Shown: piece after piece, positions 30,689 to 63,954 of the stretch | Layout of the letters: every line of letters begins with the position of its first letter | How positions within the stretch are numbered: the stretch's first letter is position 1 | Assembly (NCBI GenBank): GCA_030654395.1 | Contig: JAURXM010000076.1 | Coordinates: 1-64,000 of the forward strand | DNA: 64,000 nucleotides | Reading direction: 5' to 3' | Source: Aquabacterium sp. | GTDB lineage: Bacteria > Pseudomonadota > Gammaproteobacteria > Burkholderiales > Burkholderiaceae_C | Made by a program: the position numbers and the translations under genes | The notes under the pieces: generated by a model | Seen by the model: the letters and a program-made list of their open reading frames with translations, nothing else | Databases searched by the model: none | Told to the model about the DNA's origin: nothing

Positions 30689-30724
30689 TCGGGGCGTTGG
30701 CGCGGGCTGTTATCATCGCCCGCT

Positions 30725-30893
30725 TCAGGTGCCCGCTGCTGTCAAGCAAAGGGAGAATCGGGAAGGCGGTGTGAATCCGTCGCGTGCCCAACGCTGTAAG
30801 GATGATGACCCCCATAAAGTGCCACTGGCCGCCAAGGCCGGGAAGGTGTGTCGGGTCAGATGAATCCAAGCCAGAAGACCGGCCTGATAGTTC
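30725..30893 (+). ncRNA. Cobalamin (B12) riboswitch
   Basis: aggtgcc...aaagggagaatcgggaa...ggtgtgaatccgtcgcgtgcccaacgctgtaagg...gccactggccgccaaggccgggaaggtg...atgaatccaagccagaagaccggcctg; matches conserved B12 element segments upstream of bluB/cobT. Confidence 0.92.
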
Positions 30894-30946
30894 ATTGCGC
30901 TGCAAGGCCAGGCAGCGCTGTTTCTATTCACGCACAGGGGAATGCC

Positions 30947-35825: not shown

Positions 35826-37538
35826 ATGCAAAAGTACGAGGTAGTCAAGTCTGCAAAAGTAATTAGCCCAGAAATCGATGGATTTCCGGGAACGGCGGAG
35901 CTTGCCGCCCTGCGCGCTTGGTACTCAGGAATGTCCACCCGGGATGCTGTTGACCAGTATCTGGGTGACCAACGGCTTTCGGGGCAGTCTTCACGATCTC
36001 AAATAGGGAACATCCGCAGGAAACTGGCGAACCTTGCAAGGCTTAGTAGACGCGAGGATCTTGCCAGTGCCTTTGAGCATCCGGAATCGGATCGTATCCC
36101 GCACAGCCGCACCGCTGTTGCCGCGATTGAATTGCTGCGCACCATTACCCCACCAGCGCCGCAAATCACCGACGATATCGGTTTGTGGCTGTCTGAGCGC
36201 TCGGTGCGGTCCTTGAAAGCCCATGGCATCAACACCCTGGCCGACCTGACTGTGCGGGTGCCGCGTCGGCGGCGCTGGTGGGTGGCTGTACCTGGGCTGG
36301 GAGTGACTGGTGCCCGGCAGATTGAGGCCTTCTTTGCCCAGCACCCGCAGCTTGTTGAGCGCGCTCGTGCCCTGATCGTTCGCAATGCCCAGCAGGAAGT
36401 GCAGCCCTGGGAGGTGCTCGTGGTGCCCGGTGAGGTGGATGGTTCCCGTGGGACCTTTCGTGCGCCACCTGAGAGTTGCACACTGAATTCTGCCAATGAC
36501 TACGAAGCAGTCCAGGCTTGGCTGTCCTTGCACGAGTCGGCCGCCACCCAGCGTGCTTACAGAAAAGAGGCCGAGCGACTGATCCTGTGGGCCATCGTCG
36601 AACGCGGCAAAGCACTATCTTCCCTGAACACGGAAGACGCCATTGCTTACCGGGCGTTTCTGCGGCACCCGACACCGGCCAGGCGGTGGATTGGCCCACC
36701 CCAGGCGCGAACATCACCGGACTGGAAACCCTTTGTGGGCGGTTTGGCACCCCGCTCTGTGGCTTATGCCTTGGCGGTCCTTGGTGCCATGTTTCGCTGG
36801 CTCATGGAGCAGCGCTATGTGTTGGCCAACCCATTCTCTGGGGTCAAAGTGCGTGGTGCTTCGCACGCGGCACCCATGGATACGGGGCGGGTGTTCTCTG
36901 AAGGGGAATGGGCCATCATCCGAGCAGTGGCCGATGGGCTGGAATGGACCTATGGCTGGCAGGTTCCGGCAGCGCAACGATTACGCTTTGTGCTGGACTT
37001 TGCATATGCAACGGGACTACGGGTCAGCGAGCTGGTCGGCGCCAAACTGGGGCAGATCGAAGTCGATTCGCATGGGGACCACTGGATCAAATTGGTTGGA
37101 AAGGGCAGCAAGTCAGGCAAGGTTGCATTGCCGCCGCTGGTGCGCTCGGCTTTGGACCATTCTCTTATGCAGCGGGGCTTACCCATTACGCCAGCGCATT
37201 GGAAGCCTTCCACCCCCTTGATTGCCGACCTGGGCGACCCAGACGGCAAATCTGGCATCACCGCCACCAGGGTATGGAGCCTCATGAAGCGCTTCTTCAC
37301 TACGGTGGCGACGGCAATCGAAAAGGAGGCACCTGCCACTGCGGAAAAGCTGCGCAAGGCCAGTCCACATTGGATGCGGCATACGCATGCCACGCATGCT
37401 TTGGCGCGCGGTGCCGAACTGACCACCGTGCGCGACAATTTGCGCCACGCGTCGGTGGCCACAACGTCGATCTACCTGCACACCGATGAGGTCAAACGGG
37501 CAAGGCAGATGGGGGATGCGTTTGGGGCGCGGTCATAA
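35826..37538 (+). CDS. Tyrosine recombinase/integrase with N-terminal DUF3701-type region
   Basis: C-terminal catalytic motifs TGLRVSEL, HWMRHTHATHALARG, LRHASVATTSIYLHTDE; N-terminal LRAWYSGMSTRDAVDQYLG. Confidence 0.9.
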   Translation: MQKYEVVKSAKVISPEIDGFPGTAELAALRAWYSGMSTRDAVDQYLGDQRLSGQSSRSQIGNIRRKLANLARLSRREDLASAFEHPESDRIPHSRTAVAAIELLRTITPPAPQITDDIGLWLSERSVRSLKAHGINTLADLTVRVPRRRRWWVAVPGLGVTGARQIEAFFAQHPQLVERARALIVRNAQQEVQPWEVLVVPGEVDGSRGTFRAPPESCTLNSANDYEAVQAWLSLHESAATQRAYRKEAERLILWAIVERGKALSSLNTEDAIAYRAFLRHPTPARRWIGPPQARTSPDWKPFVGGLAPRSVAYALAVLGAMFRWLMEQRYVLANPFSGVKVRGASHAAPMDTGRVFSEGEWAIIRAVADGLEWTYGWQVPAAQRLRFVLDFAYATGLRVSELVGAKLGQIEVDSHGDHWIKLVGKGSKSGKVALPPLVRSALDHSLMQRGLPITPAHWKPSTPLIADLGDPDGKSGITATRVWSLMKRFFTTVATAIEKEAPATAEKLRKASPHWMRHTHATHALARGAELTTVRDNLRHASVATTSIYLHTDEVKRARQMGDAFGARS

Positions 37539-37618: not shown

Positions 37619-37996
37619 ATGATTTGGGATGTTGAGTACACAGACGAATTCGGCGAGTGGTGGAACGGTCTGTCTGAAGATGAACAAGAGTCTCTGGATG
37701 CATCCGTGCGCTTGCTGGAGGATCGAGGCCCAAATTTGGGGTTTCCTCACAGCAGCGGGGTTAACGGATCGAAACACAGCCATATGCGTGAATTGCGCAC
37801 GCAGCACGATGGGCGACCGTATCGAACCTTATATGCGTTTGACCCTAGACGGTCGGCCATCCTGCTGATCGGAGGCGACAAGACTGGGGACGACCGGTGG
37901 TATGACGTACACATCCCGATTGCGGACGGACTCTACGATGAACACATAGAGCAACTTCGAAAGGAAGGACTGATAAATGGCAAACAAATTCTCTGA
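37619..37996 (+). CDS. RelE/HigB-like (phage Gp49-like) toxin
   Basis: YTDEFGEWWNGLSEDEQESLDASVRLLEDRGPNLGFPHSSGV...HMRELRTQHDGRPYRTLYAFDPRRSAILLIGGDKTGD. Confidence 0.9.
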   Translation: MIWDVEYTDEFGEWWNGLSEDEQESLDASVRLLEDRGPNLGFPHSSGVNGSKHSHMRELRTQHDGRPYRTLYAFDPRRSAILLIGGDKTGDDRWYDVHIPIADGLYDEHIEQLRKEGLINGKQIL

Positions 37997-38303
37997 CTTG
38001 CGCTCGCGCATGGCACCCCAGGCCCAAGCGAGGGCGGCGGTTAAGGCGCAAGCGATGCTTGCCGAAATGCCACTCAATGAATTACGGCAAGCCCGTGGCC
38101 TGTCCCAAAAGATGCTGGCCGAGGTGTTGCACGTCCAGCAGCCATCTATCGCCAAAATGGAAAAACGCACGGACATGTATCTATCAACGCTGCGCAGTCA
38201 CATTGAAGCGATGGGTGGGCAGTTGGACGTGATTGCGCGCTTTCCGGATGGCGCGGTCAAAATCAGCAACTTTGGTGACCTTGGGTCCGCTGCGGTAGCG
38301 TGA
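37977..38303 (+). CDS. XRE-family (HigA-like) antitoxin
   Basis: MPLNELRQARGLSQKMLAEVLHVQQPSIAKMEKRTDMYLSTLRSHIEAMGGQLDVIARF; overlaps toxin 3' end. Confidence 0.92.
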   Translation: MANKFSDLRSRMAPQAQARAAVKAQAMLAEMPLNELRQARGLSQKMLAEVLHVQQPSIAKMEKRTDMYLSTLRSHIEAMGGQLDVIARFPDGAVKISNFGDLGSAAVA

Positions 38304-38935
38304 CTATTCCGGGCGAGTGGAGCCCAAGGGTTAACCCCTGGGTCTTACCGATACGATTTGCACCTAAACCGAGATTACCCCCATTTCCATTGACGTATGT
38401 CTTCAACCCGAGAACCAGAACGGGACTTACACCTGGGCAGATGATCCGCGTCAATCTGGAGCCTGCTGACATGCACCTCAAGTATGGCAAGCCCAGAAGC
38501 GTGGATGTGCCGTGGTCACTGATGGAAGACATGTGGACCTATTCGCTGCACCAGCGAGAGGTCCGGCGGCAAAGGGCTGGGCAGGTCCCGACCGCGCTTG
38601 TGCTGACAGAGCTTGGAACAGAATTCTCGAAAGGCGCGGTCGTCGACGCCATGAAAGCCATTGAGAAAAAAGTTGGCTTCCCTGTGAGGGCGCACATGCT
38701 TCGGCACACCTATGGAACCTACACACTGTCGGCTCTGCGCAAAAGCACGGTCTTCCAGGGTGAGCCGTTGCTTTATGTCCGCGACCGCATGGGGCACTCG
38801 GATGTGCAAACCACTGCGATTTACCTGCATCTGATCAATCAGTTGGACGCCCAGATTGTTTTGGCCCATGAGGACGAAATGGACATGCTGTTCGCCAACG
38901 GTGGCGAGGCCCAGATCGCGATGGGGAATCGTTGA
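38300..38935 (+). pseudogene. N-terminally truncated tyrosine recombinase (first member of trio)
   Basis: Retains C-terminal box II (AHMLRHTYGTYTLSAL, MGHSDVQTTAIYLHLINQLD); Arg-I region absent; ORF opens with GTG overlapping the antitoxin stop. Confidence 0.7.
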
Positions 38936-40560
38936 TGGCGCGCACAAAGGACTACAAGGCTAAGGCATCTGGACCCGCCACCGACCTGGCCGCTGGCTTG
39001 GGAGCAACTGATGCGCTGGTCGAGCTGCCTCCCAATCCGCGAAATCAGAACCTGATTGACCTGCGCCCATGGTTAGGGTGTGGCTTTGACGACTGGATTT
39101 GGGCCGTGACCACGGTGTTGAAGGCCCGGCTCCACAGTGGGAACTATTCGGTGGCAACCATCGTGAGTTTTGCATCCAACGGGATCAAAGTGTTTCTCCC
39201 ATACCTTACGGGAAGCCATGTGGACACCATGCCCTCAAGGCCGGCTGATATGGGCCATGGAGATGTCGCGCGATACATCGCGTGGCTCAGGCTCAAATAC
39301 CCCAAGGGCTCCACTGCCAAGAACTACTACAGCGCCTTCAAGTCGGTGGTGATTGGCCTGATGGACTATGGCTTTATCGACCAAACTCCTGAGGTTCTAC
39401 TGCCCACCAATCCATTCCCCATGAACGCAAAGGTGACGCGAGGCGAAACATCTTTAAGTCAGGCGGAAATGCAGAAGTTGGCCACGGCCCTTAAAGCCGA
39501 CCTGATTGCCATCCATCATGGACGATTTGTGGGATTGGAGTCGGAAGCCATTGTGGCTCTCATGCTCATCATTGGCATGCGCTCGGGCATCAACACAACC
39601 CCACTTCTGGAAATGAAGCGGGATTGTTTAGGCCCACATCCTTTCATGCCCAATCTCATGCTGGTTAAAACATTCAAACGCAGGGGCAAGGGCGCGCAAT
39701 CTACGTCATTGCGGCAGACCCACGTCCACGATCGCGCCGCGACCATTCCTATGGATGGAGTTGCGGTGCTCAAGAAGGCATTGGCCTTAACGGAGTTACT
39801 GGTGCCCGATGCACCTGAGGCAATCAAGGATCGTGTTTGGCTCTACCGATCGGCGCAGCGTGGAAAAGACAAAGGAAAGGTGCTTTGTCTGAATGTGGGA
39901 AGCGTGTCCGAACTCACGCGGGCAATCGTTCAACGACACGGGCTAGTGGCAGATGACGACTCACCGTTGCGGGTGACACCTGGACGCCTGCGAAAAACCA
40001 TGGAAAACCGGCTCTGGCAGATCAGTGATGGCGATCTGCTTGCCGTGTCCGCAGTAATGGGGCATTCCCCTCAGGTAGCAGATAACCACTACTTGCGCCT
40101 TGACGAGCACACCAAGGCTGAAGGCGCGAAATTCATTGGTGAAGCGCTGCCAGCTAAGCTCAGGGGGCAAGACCTCGTGCCAACACCTACGGGTAGTTGC
40201 AAAGACAGCTTGCAAGGCGCGCTCGCCCCTAAAGACGGCGCCACACATTGCGCGGAATTCACGCATTGCCTGGGGTGTCCAAGCTATGCCATTGTGGGGA
40301 CGGTCAAGGACCTGCACCGGCTGTTTAGCTTCCAGCGCTTCCTACTGTCGGAGATGGACTACTACGCCAAAGAAGAGTGGCATGAGTGGAAAGGCCACCA
40401 TCAAGATCTCATTGCGCAAATCGACCGAATTGCAGTCGATAACTTCTTCCCGGAAATGGTGGAGCAGGCCAAGGCGCTGGCTCAAAAGGACCCCCACCCA
40501 TTCTGGGCGATACGCATGCGCCAGGCTCTGTTGAATCGAGAGGCCCGCTATGGCAGTTAA
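38935..40560 (+). CDS. Tyrosine recombinase, second member of trio (Tn554 TnpB/RIT-like)
   Basis: IIGMRSGINTTPLLEMKRDCLG, RLRKTMENRLWQISDGDLLAVSAVMGHSPQVADNHYLRLDEH; TGATG overlap with upstream stop. Confidence 0.85.
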   Translation: MARTKDYKAKASGPATDLAAGLGATDALVELPPNPRNQNLIDLRPWLGCGFDDWIWAVTTVLKARLHSGNYSVATIVSFASNGIKVFLPYLTGSHVDTMPSRPADMGHGDVARYIAWLRLKYPKGSTAKNYYSAFKSVVIGLMDYGFIDQTPEVLLPTNPFPMNAKVTRGETSLSQAEMQKLATALKADLIAIHHGRFVGLESEAIVALMLIIGMRSGINTTPLLEMKRDCLGPHPFMPNLMLVKTFKRRGKGAQSTSLRQTHVHDRAATIPMDGVAVLKKALALTELLVPDAPEAIKDRVWLYRSAQRGKDKGKVLCLNVGSVSELTRAIVQRHGLVADDDSPLRVTPGRLRKTMENRLWQISDGDLLAVSAVMGHSPQVADNHYLRLDEHTKAEGAKFIGEALPAKLRGQDLVPTPTGSCKDSLQGALAPKDGATHCAEFTHCLGCPSYAIVGTVKDLHRLFSFQRFLLSEMDYYAKEEWHEWKGHHQDLIAQIDRIAVDNFFPEMVEQAKALAQKDPHPFWAIRMRQALLNREARYGS

Positions 40561-42391
40561 CGCGATTGCATTGCAGCCAGCTAAGGCTTACGACCTATTG
40601 GCCGCCCAGCCCGTCTCATCCAAAGGGCTATCGGAGTCCGCGAAATTCAATATCGTGGTCAGCGCGGTGGCTGACATGGATGGCAGCAATCACGTTCTAT
40701 CCAGATTTGGTGATTCCATTTGGGACTTCAGACCCTACTTCGAGCAATCCAACGTGGCCGATGGTCAGAAATACATTCCTTGGCCAGGGGATTGCTCGCA
40801 GGAGTTGGTCGATGACTGCAAGGCTGTCCTGTATGCATGGTTCAAGCGAGGCTTGCCTGGCTCGAAGCCTCCGGTGGCAATGGGTATCTGCCAGGCTGCC
40901 ATTGCATCAGCGATTCCGATGATGCGTTGGCTGACTGCACTGAACATCAAGAGATTCGACCAGGTGAAACCCATTCACGTCGTCAACTATGTTCATTACA
41001 CGAAATCTCGACTTACACGCAATGCAGGTAGCGTCTACGACAGCTTGCGCATCCTGGACTTCTTATGGGTGTTTCGCAACGACACGTCATTCCCGCTTGC
41101 TGCATGCCCATGGGGCGACAGCTCTCTGTGGCGGGTCAGCGGTTTGGCAAAACAAGTTGGGCGAACTGAAACCGGGAAAACGCCCATCATCCCTCCTGAT
41201 GTGCAGGCCAAGGTGTTCAACTATTGTGAAGAGATTTTTGCAGCGGCACCGAGAATTCTCAACGAACGAGACGCCGGGAGCTTGGGGCTTAGAAATCCCG
41301 CGCTGATTCGCATTCGGGATGCAGCACTTTACGTCCTGTCGATCACCAGTGGCATGCGCAACGAGGAAGCGATCGGGGTCGAGGCCGGATCATGGCGTAG
41401 CGAAGTGAGAGACGGCATTGAATTCCACTGGGTCGCCACCACCGAGCATAAGACGGGAAAAGGCAGGGTGGAGTTCTTAATACCCGAGCTCACGGTCAAA
41501 GTCTTGGCTCTGATGAGCCGCTACGCAAAGCCACTTCAAGAAATGCTGGCTCTTGAAGTGGCAGAACTGGAATGCAACCCAACACCTCAGGGCTTGACGA
41601 ATCGAATGCTGCGATTGGCAAAGGCAAAGCGAGACGCCAGAAAACTGTTTCTATGCACCAGCCGGTCTGGGCAGAGTGAATCGACTGGCTATCACGTTGA
41701 CGCGCTATCCAATGGTGGATCGAAGGTCTCATTCCGGCGATTGGCAAAGGCTGCTGGCACAGACTGGCAGTTGGCACCCCACCAGTGCCGCAGAACTTAC
41801 GCGCGCAACATCGTTGAGTCGCGCATGGGCTGCGCCTCACTTGTCTTCCTCAAATGGCAGTTCAAGCATTCCAGCATGAGCATGACCCAGTTGTATGCAT
41901 CCAACCCAATGCAAGACGCATCGTTGTTCGATGAAGTGCTGGATGAAATGACCGACTTCAAGGTGGACTTGATTGAGTCCTGGCTTGGTGACCAGGCCCT
42001 AAGCGGCGGCGCTGGCCGCCAAATCAAGAAGTCGCGTGCGATTACCCTGAAAAGTCGCACCGCGTTGTTGGCTGAAACAGCAGCCCAGGTTCACATCCGC
42101 GCCACGGGCCACGGATGGTGCCTGGCGCAAGAAAAGGGGTGTGGTGGCGCGGGTCTGTATGAAGCGACCCGGTGCGTTGGATGCAAGAACGGCGTCATTG
42201 ATGAGTCGTTTGCCGAGATCTGGAAAGGCATCTATGCGCAACAGACCGAATTGTTGACCATTGACGATGCTGGCCCAGCGGTCAGGCAACGTGCTGAGCG
42301 TGACGTTCAATGGGCGCGCCAAGTGATGGTAGACCTTGGTGTTCTACTGACACCGGATACGTCAAATCTGAATGGAGCTCCAAATGAGTGA
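40550..42391 (+). CDS. Tyrosine recombinase, third member of trio
   Basis: SITSGMRNEEAIGVE, LAPHQCRRTYARNIVESRMG, FKHSSMSMTQLYASNP; 11-nt overlap with upstream gene. Confidence 0.85.
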   Translation: MAVNAIALQPAKAYDLLAAQPVSSKGLSESAKFNIVVSAVADMDGSNHVLSRFGDSIWDFRPYFEQSNVADGQKYIPWPGDCSQELVDDCKAVLYAWFKRGLPGSKPPVAMGICQAAIASAIPMMRWLTALNIKRFDQVKPIHVVNYVHYTKSRLTRNAGSVYDSLRILDFLWVFRNDTSFPLAACPWGDSSLWRVSGLAKQVGRTETGKTPIIPPDVQAKVFNYCEEIFAAAPRILNERDAGSLGLRNPALIRIRDAALYVLSITSGMRNEEAIGVEAGSWRSEVRDGIEFHWVATTEHKTGKGRVEFLIPELTVKVLALMSRYAKPLQEMLALEVAELECNPTPQGLTNRMLRLAKAKRDARKLFLCTSRSGQSESTGYHVDALSNGGSKVSFRRLAKAAGTDWQLAPHQCRRTYARNIVESRMGCASLVFLKWQFKHSSMSMTQLYASNPMQDASLFDEVLDEMTDFKVDLIESWLGDQALSGGAGRQIKKSRAITLKSRTALLAETAAQVHIRATGHGWCLAQEKGCGGAGLYEATRCVGCKNGVIDESFAEIWKGIYAQQTELLTIDDAGPAVRQRAERDVQWARQVMVDLGVLLTPDTSNLNGAPNE

Positions 42392-42806: not shown

Positions 42807-44105
42807 ATGTTTGCTCTGGTTGATGGCAATAACTTTTACGTCAGTTGTGAGCGCGTGTTTCGGCCCAGTTTGAACGGTCGTCCAGTGGTTGTGCTGTCTT
42901 CAAATGATGGGTGTGCGATTGCACGCAGCAACGAGGCCAAGGCGCTGGGAGTCAAGATGGGCGCGCCGTGGTTCGAGATCCGGCACTTGGAAGAACAGGA
43001 AGGTCTGGTCGCGCTGTCGGCCAACTTCGCTTTGTATGGAGACATGAGCGACCGCATGATGAGCATCGCTGCTGGGTTGGGCCCTGCCCAGGAGATCTAC
43101 AGCATCGACGAGTCATTCATTGGGCTTGATGGGGTTCGCGGCGACCTGACTAAGAGATCGCATGCTGTGCGTGACCGGATCAATCAGTGGACTGGCATCC
43201 CCTGCGGCGTCGGTATTGGTGCCACCAAGACACTGGCCAAACTGGCCAATCACATTGCCAAGACCGCCGAAAGAAAGCCTGGCAGTTACCCTGAGAGTTT
43301 GGCTACGGTCTGCAACTTGTTAAACCTCCCTGGATCTGATGTGGATGCCATATTGGCTGCGACCGATGTGGGCGAAGTGTGGGGGGTCGGTCGGCGCATC
43401 GGACAGCAACTGCGTGACGCAGGGGTGACTTCGGTTCTCGACCTCGCAAGATTGAGTCCATCCATGGTTCGTGATCGTTGGAGCGTTGTATTGGAGCGCA
43501 CAGTCAGAGAATTGCAGGGGGAGGCATGCATCAGCTTGGATGACGCGCCAAGCCCTAAAAAACAGATTGCTTGCACCCGCTCATTTGGTCAGCCCGTCAC
43601 TGAAGTTAAGCCTCTCATCGAGGCGGTGAGCGAGTTCACCAGCCGTGCGGCAGCCAAGCTGCGGCGTCAATCCGGCTTGGCTGGTCAGATACTGGTGTTC
43701 GCCCACACGTCCCCCTTCCGACAGGGGCCACACTTCTCCAAAAGCATAGTCATACCGCTGCGCCGTCCGACGGCGGACACGAGGCATCTGGTTCAGGCCG
43801 CTGTAATGGGAGTCACCCAGATTTACAAACCGGGATTCAAACTCTCCAAGGCAGGAGTCATGCTGCTGGACTTGATGCCGGACAACGTCTCACAAGGCGA
43901 GTTTGACTTCGGTGCGCCTGAAACACGGGATCGCGGAAAATTGATGGCAGCAATGGATTCCATCAATGATCGGTTTGGACGCGGTGCCATCCATGTAGGA
44001 AGCGCTGTCGGTGGGTGCAGGCCCCGCGACTGGTCGATGAGGCAAGAAAGACTTACGCCTCAATACACCACCAAATTTAGTGACATGCCTGTGGCCAGAG
44101 CTTAG
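42807..44105 (+). CDS. umuC: Y-family DNA polymerase V subunit UmuC
   Basis: [58 protein letters not shown]...[12 protein letters not shown]. Confidence 0.95.
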
Positions 44106-57015: not shown

Positions 57016-57483
57016 AACAACGACGGATGCGCTATTGCGCGCTCCAACGAAGCCAAGGCGCTGGGCATAAAGATGGGAGCACCTTGGTTCAAAATTCGTC
57101 ACATGGAGGACTCGCACGGCCTGGTCGCCCTTTCTGCGAATTTCGCTCTATACGGGGAACTTAGCGACCGCATGATGAGCCTGGCGGCCGGCTTGGGACC
57201 GCACCAGGAGATTTACTCCATCGATGAATCCTTCATCGACTTGACTGGCGTGCCCGGCAACCTTGTAGAGCGTACTGGCCAGATCGGCGGTCAACTTAGA
57301 CTCGTTTCACTCCCAGGACGGATAGAAACGGTCAACTATGCAATCAATGGATACAGCTATCTGATTCAACGTAACGAGCGAATCTCCCCGCAGGAGTTTG
57401 TGCGGCGCATACGGAAGGCTTACGACTGTGACGACTGCCCTCAAAATAAAGCTGTCGTCGATGCGCTGGAATGTCTCATCTGA
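57016..57483 (+). pseudogene. Internal umuC fragment fused in frame to an unrelated C-terminal sequence
   Basis: [90 protein letters not shown] then GGQLRLVSLPGRIETVNYAING... Confidence 0.85.
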
Positions 57484-61243: not shown

Positions 61244-61957
61244 ATGATGCAGGCTGGTAAGATGCGTGGAATTGCACTCTATGAGCGAATTGCACGAATG
61301 GCAAAGCCCCCTGTTGTTGAAGACAAGAACCTTGAACACATGCTCAAAGCCACCGCAGGCTACAGCCGCATGGCCGAGCGCGATGTAGCGTTGTTGCTCA
61401 CGCTCTACGGCACCGCCATGGCAACTACCGAGCTGGCCAAGATCACTGTGAGCGACTACCTAGAGGCGGACGGCACTGTCAAGGTCAATAGCGCGGTTCG
61501 TCATGACGTTGCCCACAACGGCGAATTGCGACCGTTGTACTGGTCAAACCGGCGTGTGGTCAATGCCGTGGACAAGTACCTCGCCTGGCGACTGGCGCAC
61601 AAGCATGGCGCAACAGTTAAGAAGGGCGCGTATCGTGGCCTGGACCCCGCCAGTTCCCTTTTCCTGACGGACGATGGCAAACCCTATGCCTTGACGGCCA
61701 AGACGCTGCCATCGGGCGTTGTGAGCTATTCCTGTAACACCCTTGGTGCCGTCATATCCAAGCTGCATGCCAACGCCGGCATCAAGGGCGGCAACGCGCA
61801 GGCCGCACGGAGGACCTGGGCAGTGAAGCAGCACCGAAAGGGCTATGACCTGGTGCATATCGCCAAAATCCTCGGGCACAAGAGCGTGACAACCACCAAG
61901 CGGCTGGTGGAAGGCGACCCGACCAGGCTTGCAGACATCGTGGCGGGGGCGGTTTGA
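61244..61957 (+). CDS. Short tyrosine-recombinase-fold protein lacking canonical catalytic residues
   Basis: NAQAARRTWAVKQHRKGYDLVHIAKILGHKSVTTTKRLVEGDP aligns by eye to box II, but Tyr replaced by Leu and Arg-I replaced. Confidence 0.75.
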   Translation: MMQAGKMRGIALYERIARMAKPPVVEDKNLEHMLKATAGYSRMAERDVALLLTLYGTAMATTELAKITVSDYLEADGTVKVNSAVRHDVAHNGELRPLYWSNRRVVNAVDKYLAWRLAHKHGATVKKGAYRGLDPASSLFLTDDGKPYALTAKTLPSGVVSYSCNTLGAVISKLHANAGIKGGNAQAARRTWAVKQHRKGYDLVHIAKILGHKSVTTTKRLVEGDPTRLADIVAGAV

Positions 61958-61971
61958 TGCGTCAAAAAGCG

Positions 61972-61996
61972 AAAAGCCTCCACAAGGGAGGCCTTT
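61972..61996 (+). terminator. Possible terminator after recombinase-like gene
   Basis: aaaagcctccacaagggaggccttt: GCCTCC/GGAGGC stem. Confidence 0.4.
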
Positions 61997-62053
61997 ACAC
62001 TCTTTACGCAGGGGCGCCCTTTCGGGTAATGCCTTCCAGCGCTTCGAGACGGA

Positions 62054-63013
62054 TTGTACAACAGGTTTATTGAAAGACAGAAATTGCTTCCCAATCCAAT
62101 TGCCTTCGAAGAGCTGATCTCGAAACCTCGTCTGGACAGCTACCGCGGTTACTTCCATGCCAGCCTGGATGAGGCGATCGGGCTTTACATGTGGAATGGA
62201 GCAGTCTCTGTTTGTCTAGGGACGATCATTGCTTACTACGAGATCGCTCTGCGCAACCGGCTACATCATGCCATGTCTACCTTTTACAGCAATGGCGGAT
62301 CTACCAGTATCCACTGGTACGACCGAATCTGGGCTCAACTGAAATCAGAAACTCAGCGCAGTATTGACAAGATCAGAACTGAGCGCGGCCCTGGGGGAAC
62401 GGTGGTTGTTCGAAATCCAGCACCAAGTCCTGATGAGGTGGTGTCCAGACTTACCTTCGGATTCTGGCCAGCGATTCTGGCCGTGATTGATCGAAGGTAT
62501 GGCAGTCAGATTTTCCCAAACGTATTCCCTCACCATCCGTTGAACGCGACACCGGCAGCATGGAACAACAGAGTGAGCCGTAAGCAGGCTACAGAGTACA
62601 TCTACGAAGTGAACTACATCCGCAACAGAATTGCGCACCACGAACCGATATGGAAGTTTCCTGCAGTAATGAACACATCCCAATCACCACCCGTAGTGGT
62701 CATTTCAGAATCACTTAGCAAAAGCGATTCCATTGCGCGCTTTCGCAGTTTTATTGCCAACCTTGATGCCGGCATAGCAAGCCTGAGCGCTGATCTGACA
62801 AATGACCTAAGCAACTCAAGCTGGAGAAATGATCTGAATTTTCTACTCTCGGATAGGGGTGTAAGCCGGTATCGATCATTGCGGCATGTGCCAGCCAATG
62901 GCACGCTTTCTCCAGCTGATTTGAGAAAGAACTATTCGCTTGTTGGGAAGGCAAATCAGCCAGTACGTATAGGCGGTCGTGCGCAATTCGGTGGAATTTT
63001 CATTCCAAACTAA
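62054..63013 (+). CDS. Abi-like protein with HEPN RNase-type motif
   Basis: YIYEVNYIRNRIAHHEPIWKFP (Rx4H-type RNRIAHH), AYYEIALRNRLHHAM. Confidence 0.8.
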   Translation: MYNRFIERQKLLPNPIAFEELISKPRLDSYRGYFHASLDEAIGLYMWNGAVSVCLGTIIAYYEIALRNRLHHAMSTFYSNGGSTSIHWYDRIWAQLKSETQRSIDKIRTERGPGGTVVVRNPAPSPDEVVSRLTFGFWPAILAVIDRRYGSQIFPNVFPHHPLNATPAAWNNRVSRKQATEYIYEVNYIRNRIAHHEPIWKFPAVMNTSQSPPVVVISESLSKSDSIARFRSFIANLDAGIASLSADLTNDLSNSSWRNDLNFLLSDRGVSRYRSLRHVPANGTLSPADLRKNYSLVGKANQPVRIGGRAQFGGIFIPN

Positions 63014-63021
63014 GTTCAGCA

Positions 63022-63234
63022 ATGGCAACCCAACAAGAATTCCTGCGGAATGCAGCAGCTGAGCTGGACTTGACCCAGAAGGAGCTGGCCGCACGCATGG
63101 CGGCCCCGTGGGAGACATTTCGCAAGTGGTTGATGCCAAATGACTCCGGCAGCTATCGCGAAATGCCAGTAATCGCCTGGCAATTGGTGCGCGAAATCCT
63201 TGAGCACGAGAAGTTGAAGCAGAAAGCTAAATAG
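63022..63234 (+). CDS. Small HTH (XRE-like) protein
   Basis: AAAELDLTQKELAARMAAPWETFRKWLMP. Confidence 0.65.
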   Translation: MATQQEFLRNAAAELDLTQKELAARMAAPWETFRKWLMPNDSGSYREMPVIAWQLVREILEHEKLKQKAK

Positions 63235-63271
63235 CACTTGCAAGGTGCCCAATGGGCACTATACTAAAACC

Positions 63272-63704: not shown

Positions 63705-63720
63705 ACCAAAGGAAATCGGT

Positions 63721-63954
63721 ATGGCAGAAGATAGATATGGATACGTGGAGCATCAAATCGTGGAGGTTGAGGGCTTCCGCATGGTGGATGCAACCTCCAC
63801 GGGGCCACGCCCGCATGATGATGTTGTGTGGGTGGGGTATGGCGGCATGGAAGGTCAATGGCTCACTCCTGATAAAGCGTTGGCCGTTGCAGCGGCCATT
63901 ACCGCCGTGGCGAATGGCAACCTTTTGCGCCGTGGCCAATCTATCGAAAAGTGA
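63721..63954 (+). CDS. Small hypothetical protein
   Basis: MAEDRYGYVEHQIVEVEGFRMVDATSTGPRPHDDVVWVGYGG... Confidence 0.5.
   Translation: MAEDRYGYVEHQIVEVEGFRMVDATSTGPRPHDDVVWVGYGGMEGQWLTPDKALAVAAAITAVANGNLLRRGQSIEK

Follow-up and report, generated by a model that had tools for sequence, protein, structure and literature searches.

Close to the end of the window (the whole 64,000-nucleotide stretch of Aquabacterium sp. DNA that was analysed), a gene for an Abi_2/PD-T4-5-like HEPN protein (62054-63013, plus strand) is found between a gene for a tyrosine recombinase (61244-61957, plus strand; Phage_integrase, E 1.6e-9) and one for a small HTH-like protein (63022-63234, plus strand). The gap between integrase and Abi gene contains a candidate non-coding RNA of about 80 nt, which is divergent from Abi (61970-62049, minus strand) and was recognised from the identity of its leader DNA and from its fold; this RNA, overlooked by an earlier note on the same DNA, is the likely partner of the Abi protein and is proposed to be an RNA antitoxin.

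Counted from the TTG codon at 62054, the Abi ORF encodes 319 amino acids. The actual start is probably the second TTG, at 62084, leading to a protein of 309 amino acids, since the proteins of the two closest relatives, L002 and L074 (46% and 41% protein identity), begin at the residue matching this codon. Profile searches revealed a match to Pfam Abi_2 with 33.1 bits, compared to a gathering cut-off of 25.6, and further matches to the PADLOC profile PD-T4-5 (E 9.4e-16), to the AbiD profile (E 5.8e-7) and to PHROG 26181 (E 1.1e-26). The PD-T4-5 match is partial, since it covers positions 12-213 of 309, or residues 20-208 in another count, corresponding to the HEPN part, with 55.9 bits; among the Abi relatives the scores for this profile are 52-132 bits. 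The earlier note had proposed an Abi_2-type HEPN protein carrying an R-x4-H motif, and both proposals are borne out, the first by the Pfam match and the conserved motif, the second by the presence of YIYEVNYIRNRIAHHEPIW, where R190 and H195 fit the spacing. In the active-site motif RNRIAH (62621-62638, plus strand), R190, N191, R192 and H195 do not vary among 30 aligned relatives, nor across the 23 sequences of a second alignment; an upstream RN pair (R67, N68) and E63 are also invariant in the 30 relatives.

An AlphaFold2 model of the protein, built from a 23-sequence alignment, reached a pLDDT of 85, compared to 34 for the single-sequence model. Its top match in the PDB is 8vz6, the PbAbiF dimer with its ncRNA (probability 0.99, E 0.087), with TM values of 0.44-0.46 and 15% identity; given this E value and these TM values, the match supports an AbiF-like fold but does not prove it. 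A PDB search with the protein sequence produced no meaningful match. Abi is placed, as a probable RNA-cutting phage-defence protein, in the AbiF/PD-T4-5 group, and the proposal of a candidate phage-defence or toxin-antitoxin unit finds support, at the sequence level, for the Abi_2 HEPN protein.

On the minus strand, the elements of the candidate RNA are a -10 box, the closing helix P1 and the hairpin inside it, a linker of the AAAGAG type and an intrinsic terminator. The -10-like box, TACAAT (62053-62058, minus strand), matches in position the boxes of L074 and L002; the window promoter has 8 of 12 positions in common with the consensus and is without a good -35, while the promoters of the other two RNAs are TTGACA-17-TAATAT and TTGACA-17-TAGTAT. 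The 5' strand of P1 (62036-62042) pairs with its 3' strand (62006-62012), both on the minus strand, as found in alignment A7; one U-U mismatch is present in the window copy. The terminator hairpin (61972-61996, minus strand), followed by CGCTTTTTG, is the best terminator-like site in the region. The leader DNA is 80% identical to that of L074 over 81 nt, while the Abi proteins are just 41% identical; weaker similarity is also found to L049, L055 and, via L074, to L002. The window RNA folds with a z of -2.75, better than all 200 shuffles, and the plus strand with -1.65; the core of the RNA alone has a z of -1.80, the terminator contributing part of the full value. No Rfam family was matched over the Abi region, and RF03085, the Rfam abiF RNA, is absent from the region, the window and the genome, the phiC2 positive control having been found. 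A cobalamin riboswitch (30710-30900) is the sole Rfam match above threshold in the window. From these sequence features, the locus appears to possess one of the features expected of a type III toxin-antitoxin system, a structured RNA gene linked to the Abi gene.

Similar RNAs accompany Abi genes elsewhere. Of 68 dereplicated loci, 31 have a minus-strand terminator in the interval 80-185 nt upstream from a fixed Abi anchor; ten dinucleotide-shuffled sets gave 1-4 of 68, and minus-strand terminators occur in 8 and 6 loci in two intervals further upstream. In the 80-185 nt interval plus-strand terminators were found in 18 of 68 loci, and among distant Abi_2 loci the terminator feature is seen in under half. 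The 5' and 3' segments belonging to the same locus pair at a mean of -11.2 kcal/mol, compared to -8.8 for swapped partners (sd 0.62), a result matched by 2 of 20,000 permutations, with the anchor mis-set in a few loci, the window included; using an earlier and narrower regex anchor, wrong in some loci, P1 pairing was matched by 29 of 5000 permutations.

A model, R2, was built from five of these RNAs (L044, L046, L051, L052 and L055) and also matched L058, L053, L095 and L061, with scores from 42 down to 33 bits; each of these RNAs is next to an Abi gene and on the opposite strand. When the nine RNAs are aligned to R2, 98.7% of the cells are paired, eight pairs have changed on both sides and the covariation score is reached by none of 500 shuffles; although the alignment was itself fitted to R2, the five-sequence MAFFT alignment beneath it points the same way. 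The non-Watson-Crick cells comprise seven G-U and no A-C, so that the minus strand fits as the functional one. The clade of the window is represented by a separate model, R1. R2 finds the window RNA at the exact place and strand with 14 bits (E 1.3), and the tie between R1 and R2 therefore rests on shared sequence and layout: 5' AAGCG..TGGAA and 3' CCAAT..AAAGAG are common to both clades, in the same layout. Genome-wide, R2 loses its specificity under about 42 bits, since ordinary terminators are matched by its terminator part, and only seed loci exceeded this value; thus, R2 gives no independent genome-wide support. Searches of plasmid DNA with the RNAs as queries retrieved Abi-linked copies and otherwise three chance-level Streptomyces matches (28% coverage), and R2 had no match on an E. 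coli Abi plasmid.

On the small Klebsiella and Serratia plasmids L058 and L053, the RNA is located downstream of Abi and ends about 15 nt past the Abi stop codon. That the position moves while the fold is constant speaks for an RNA active as a molecule, rather than just a leader of an mRNA; its unvarying location on the opposite strand, in turn, means that antisense control has to be considered. Such a regulator, type I-like or based on transcriptional interference, would limit the abi mRNA through pairing with its untranslated region or through collision of the promoters, and would not bind the protein. Indeed, the RNA is opposite to Abi in every layout found, mostly upstream and divergent and, in L053 and L058, downstream and convergent; moreover, the -35 position overlaps the Abi start in several copies and any upstream Abi promoter would yield a leader complementary to the RNA. 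However, P1 and the terminator persist, with covariation, at varying positions relative to Abi, as for an RNA acting through its fold, and known AbiF RNAs bind protein (PMC12373285), making antisense control an unlikely explanation. A plus-strand function, either as a cis-acting leader or as a bidirectional terminator that would regulate how much integrase transcription continues into Abi, is more doubtful still. The hairpin could stop plus-strand transcription in many loci (the 18 of 68 mentioned above), and L. lactis abiD1, a comparable case, has a structured 5'UTR (PMC12373285); conversely, the excess of G-U over A-C cells favours the minus strand, this strand also has the better T-runs and -10/-35 boxes, the plus-strand fold is less exceptional (see the z values above) and in two plasmids the RNA is found downstream of Abi.

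The genes on the two sides of the RNA and Abi have a different history of linkage. Homologues of the integrase, 66-76% identical, are present on Delftia, Alicycliphilus, Simplicispira and Comamonas plasmids (66% for the Comamonas copy), and the DNA remains homologous to these integrase-bearing plasmids up to 61957-61959; the sequence shared with Polaromonas pE10SP1 starts again at 63018, 4 nt ahead of the HTH start. On the Comamonas plasmid, a relative of the HTH protein (51% identical) starts 2 bp past the integrase; in pE10SP1, what is left of the integrase is a C-terminal remnant of 19 residues, and a RelE/HigA pair stands between it and the HTH gene, whose product is 81% identical to that of the window, while the gene order in Polaromonas JS666 is integrase, RelE, HigA and HTH. 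Since the HTH relatives follow either the integrase directly or RelE/HigA, Abi is cargo between backbone genes; thus, as seen from the plasmid comparisons, the slot between integrase and HTH can be empty, occupied by a toxin-antitoxin pair or occupied by the Abi cassette. The cargo segment delimited by the homology breakpoints (61958-63017) contains the RNA and Abi, and no near-identical copy of the Abi locus was found on plasmids. Judging from this synteny, the HTH protein and the recombinase are parts of the receiving backbone. The single transferable unit of recombinase, Abi and HTH that the earlier note had considered possible is therefore retained in part: the Abi segment appears transferable, while the unit consists of RNA and Abi, the recombinase being rejected as a component because it belongs to the plasmid-type backbone. 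On the plasmids L065 (Alicycliphilus) and L067 (Simplicispira), genes for AbiEii or DUF6036 nucleotidyltransferases are found directly before the same integrase, so toxin-antitoxin and defence genes gather on both its sides.

The HTH ORF encodes 70 amino acids. A Pfam search with this protein gave no family above cut-off; PHROG transcriptional regulators match it with an E of 0.001, and its plasmid homologues carry the annotation "transcriptional regulator". Just past the gene, the palindrome GTGCCCAATGGGCAC (63245-63259, plus strand), a perfect inverted repeat and possible operator of the backbone operon, overlaps a promoter-like TTGCAA-16-TATACT, and palindrome and promoter-like site are largely conserved in Polaromonas pE10SP1; this arrangement is consistent with HTH control of the downstream backbone operon. 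The operon downstream of GTGCCCAATGGGCAC is long and made of small unknown genes. It includes related small DUF6907-like genes, found at 63718-63954 in the window and at 6699-6974 in L043, and the DUF6907-like gene pair (YGYVEHQ...EVEGFRMVDAT) is apparently a duplication. Chromosomal proteins from the same order, about 420-540 amino acids long, have an N-terminal extension that the small HTH protein resembles, and the latter matches the NCBIfam aspartate carbamoyltransferase PRK11891 over residues 3-69.

Another reading is that the locus is plain cargo of the plasmid type, in which the Abi gene has decayed or fallen silent. The TTG start, the weak promoter and the mismatch in P1 would agree with decay, as would the Polaromonas integrase remnant adjoining the same slot; nevertheless, the ORF is full-length and keeps every invariant residue and the RNA fold surpasses all its shuffles, so that this explanation is very improbable. 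As for the HTH protein, a homologue of the one in the window was found near none of 95 Abi relatives (34 genome or plasmid loci and 61 viral-contig loci, with flanks of a few kb searched for each and many loci mutually related); other HTH genes, unrelated to that of the window, are near some of them, on the upstream side. Hence the conserved pairing expected of an Abi effector with an HTH regulator or antitoxin, as the earlier note had suggested from a gene order and an 8-bp gap that are indeed present, was not found among these relatives, and a two-gene, type II-like unit is extremely improbable, the HTH gene being linked instead to the integrase and RelE/HigA on plasmids and backbone homology restarting 4 nt before its start.

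Elsewhere in the window, another toxin-antitoxin pair, a Gp49-type toxin with an HTH antitoxin (37619-38303), is present beside recombinases in the same island; it is flanked by a DUF3701 integrase (35826-37538) and by three ORFs (38300-42391), two of which match Phage_integrase. A truncated second UmuC-type polymerase containing only the IMS domain (57073-57483) is found near metal-resistance-like genes, and a full UmuC-type copy is at 42807-44105.

A protein of the Abi_2 family with an invariant HEPN motif is thus accompanied by an RNA that is conserved, with covarying structure and constant strand, and that is linked to Abi, while the HTH gene is not. The explanation we regard as probable is a compact cassette of RNA antitoxin and HEPN ribonuclease of the AbiF kind, similar to type III toxin-antitoxin systems. 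By analogy with AbiF relatives, from which RNA cutting, RNA-protein binding, neutralisation and the phage trigger are taken, Abi would form a HEPN dimer in which R190 and H195 cut RNA. The minus-strand ncRNA is predicted to fold into the closed P1, the inner hairpin and the intrinsic terminator, and in this form it would bind the Abi dimer and maintain the RNase inactive; the RNA of about 80 nt thus probably keeps the Abi toxin in check. Phage infection, by halting host transcription or removing the RNA, would free the RNase, which may then stop growth ahead of phage release.

Cas13 is proposed to descend from AbiF proteins and their RNAs. We are inclined to believe, with somewhat less assurance than for the cassette itself, that proteobacterial PD-T4-5/Abi_2 defence genes, treated until now as single-gene systems, commonly carry an opposite-strand structured RNA of a new family, separate from Rfam abiF. 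In that case, the alliance of AbiF with RNA from which Cas13 would have arisen extends further than has been described, with RNAs of more diverse orientation and sequence. If this is true, a second and differently oriented RNA family on the PD-T4-5-like branch would represent a missing component of single-gene systems, affecting the cloning and testing of such defence systems, and would add to what can be learnt about the origin of RNA binding in HEPN RNases. Furthermore, RNA and toxin would travel jointly between backbone genes as a cassette of about 1 kb, allowing a toxic gene to move safely.

In ToxIN and other type III toxin-antitoxin systems an RNA antitoxin neutralises a toxin RNase, a logic shared with the reading proposed here. 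However, those systems have tandem RNA repeats, an RNA in the direction of the toxin and a different toxin fold, differently from this locus. AbiD/F proteins have been reported to co-occur with RF03085 RNA (PMC12165695), so the kind of system is already known; among the open-access papers searched, no account was found of an opposite-strand RNA at PD-T4-5-like genes. PD-T4-5 itself is an E. coli plasmid gene, distantly related to AbiF/D, which gives abortive infection (PMC9519451); it resembles the window gene in being plasmid-borne and Abi-type, and its HMM matches the HEPN part of the window Abi, but in the portion of PMC9519451 dealing with it PD-T4-5 is described as a single gene, with RNA unmentioned. 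PbAbiF-AbiFr (PDB 8VZ6; PMC12737573) is a HEPN protein with an RNA antitoxin and the best structural match of the Abi model; the differences are the 15% identity, with an E of 0.087, and the lack of a match to the Rfam abiF RNA at the window locus. The AbiF of C. difficile is toxic, R202 and H207 being required, and the RCd22 RNA neutralises it by binding to it directly (PMC12373285). This system (RF03085) shares with the one described here an Abi_2 HEPN protein with R-x4-H, an RNA of about 100 nt running from promoter to terminator beside the gene, and the nature of a small mobile defence or toxin-antitoxin cassette. Conversely, RCd22 carries the RF03085 motifs, which the window RNA does not have, and is read co-directionally with abiF, a co-direction of RF03085 confirmed in phiC2, while the window RNA and Abi are on opposite strands.
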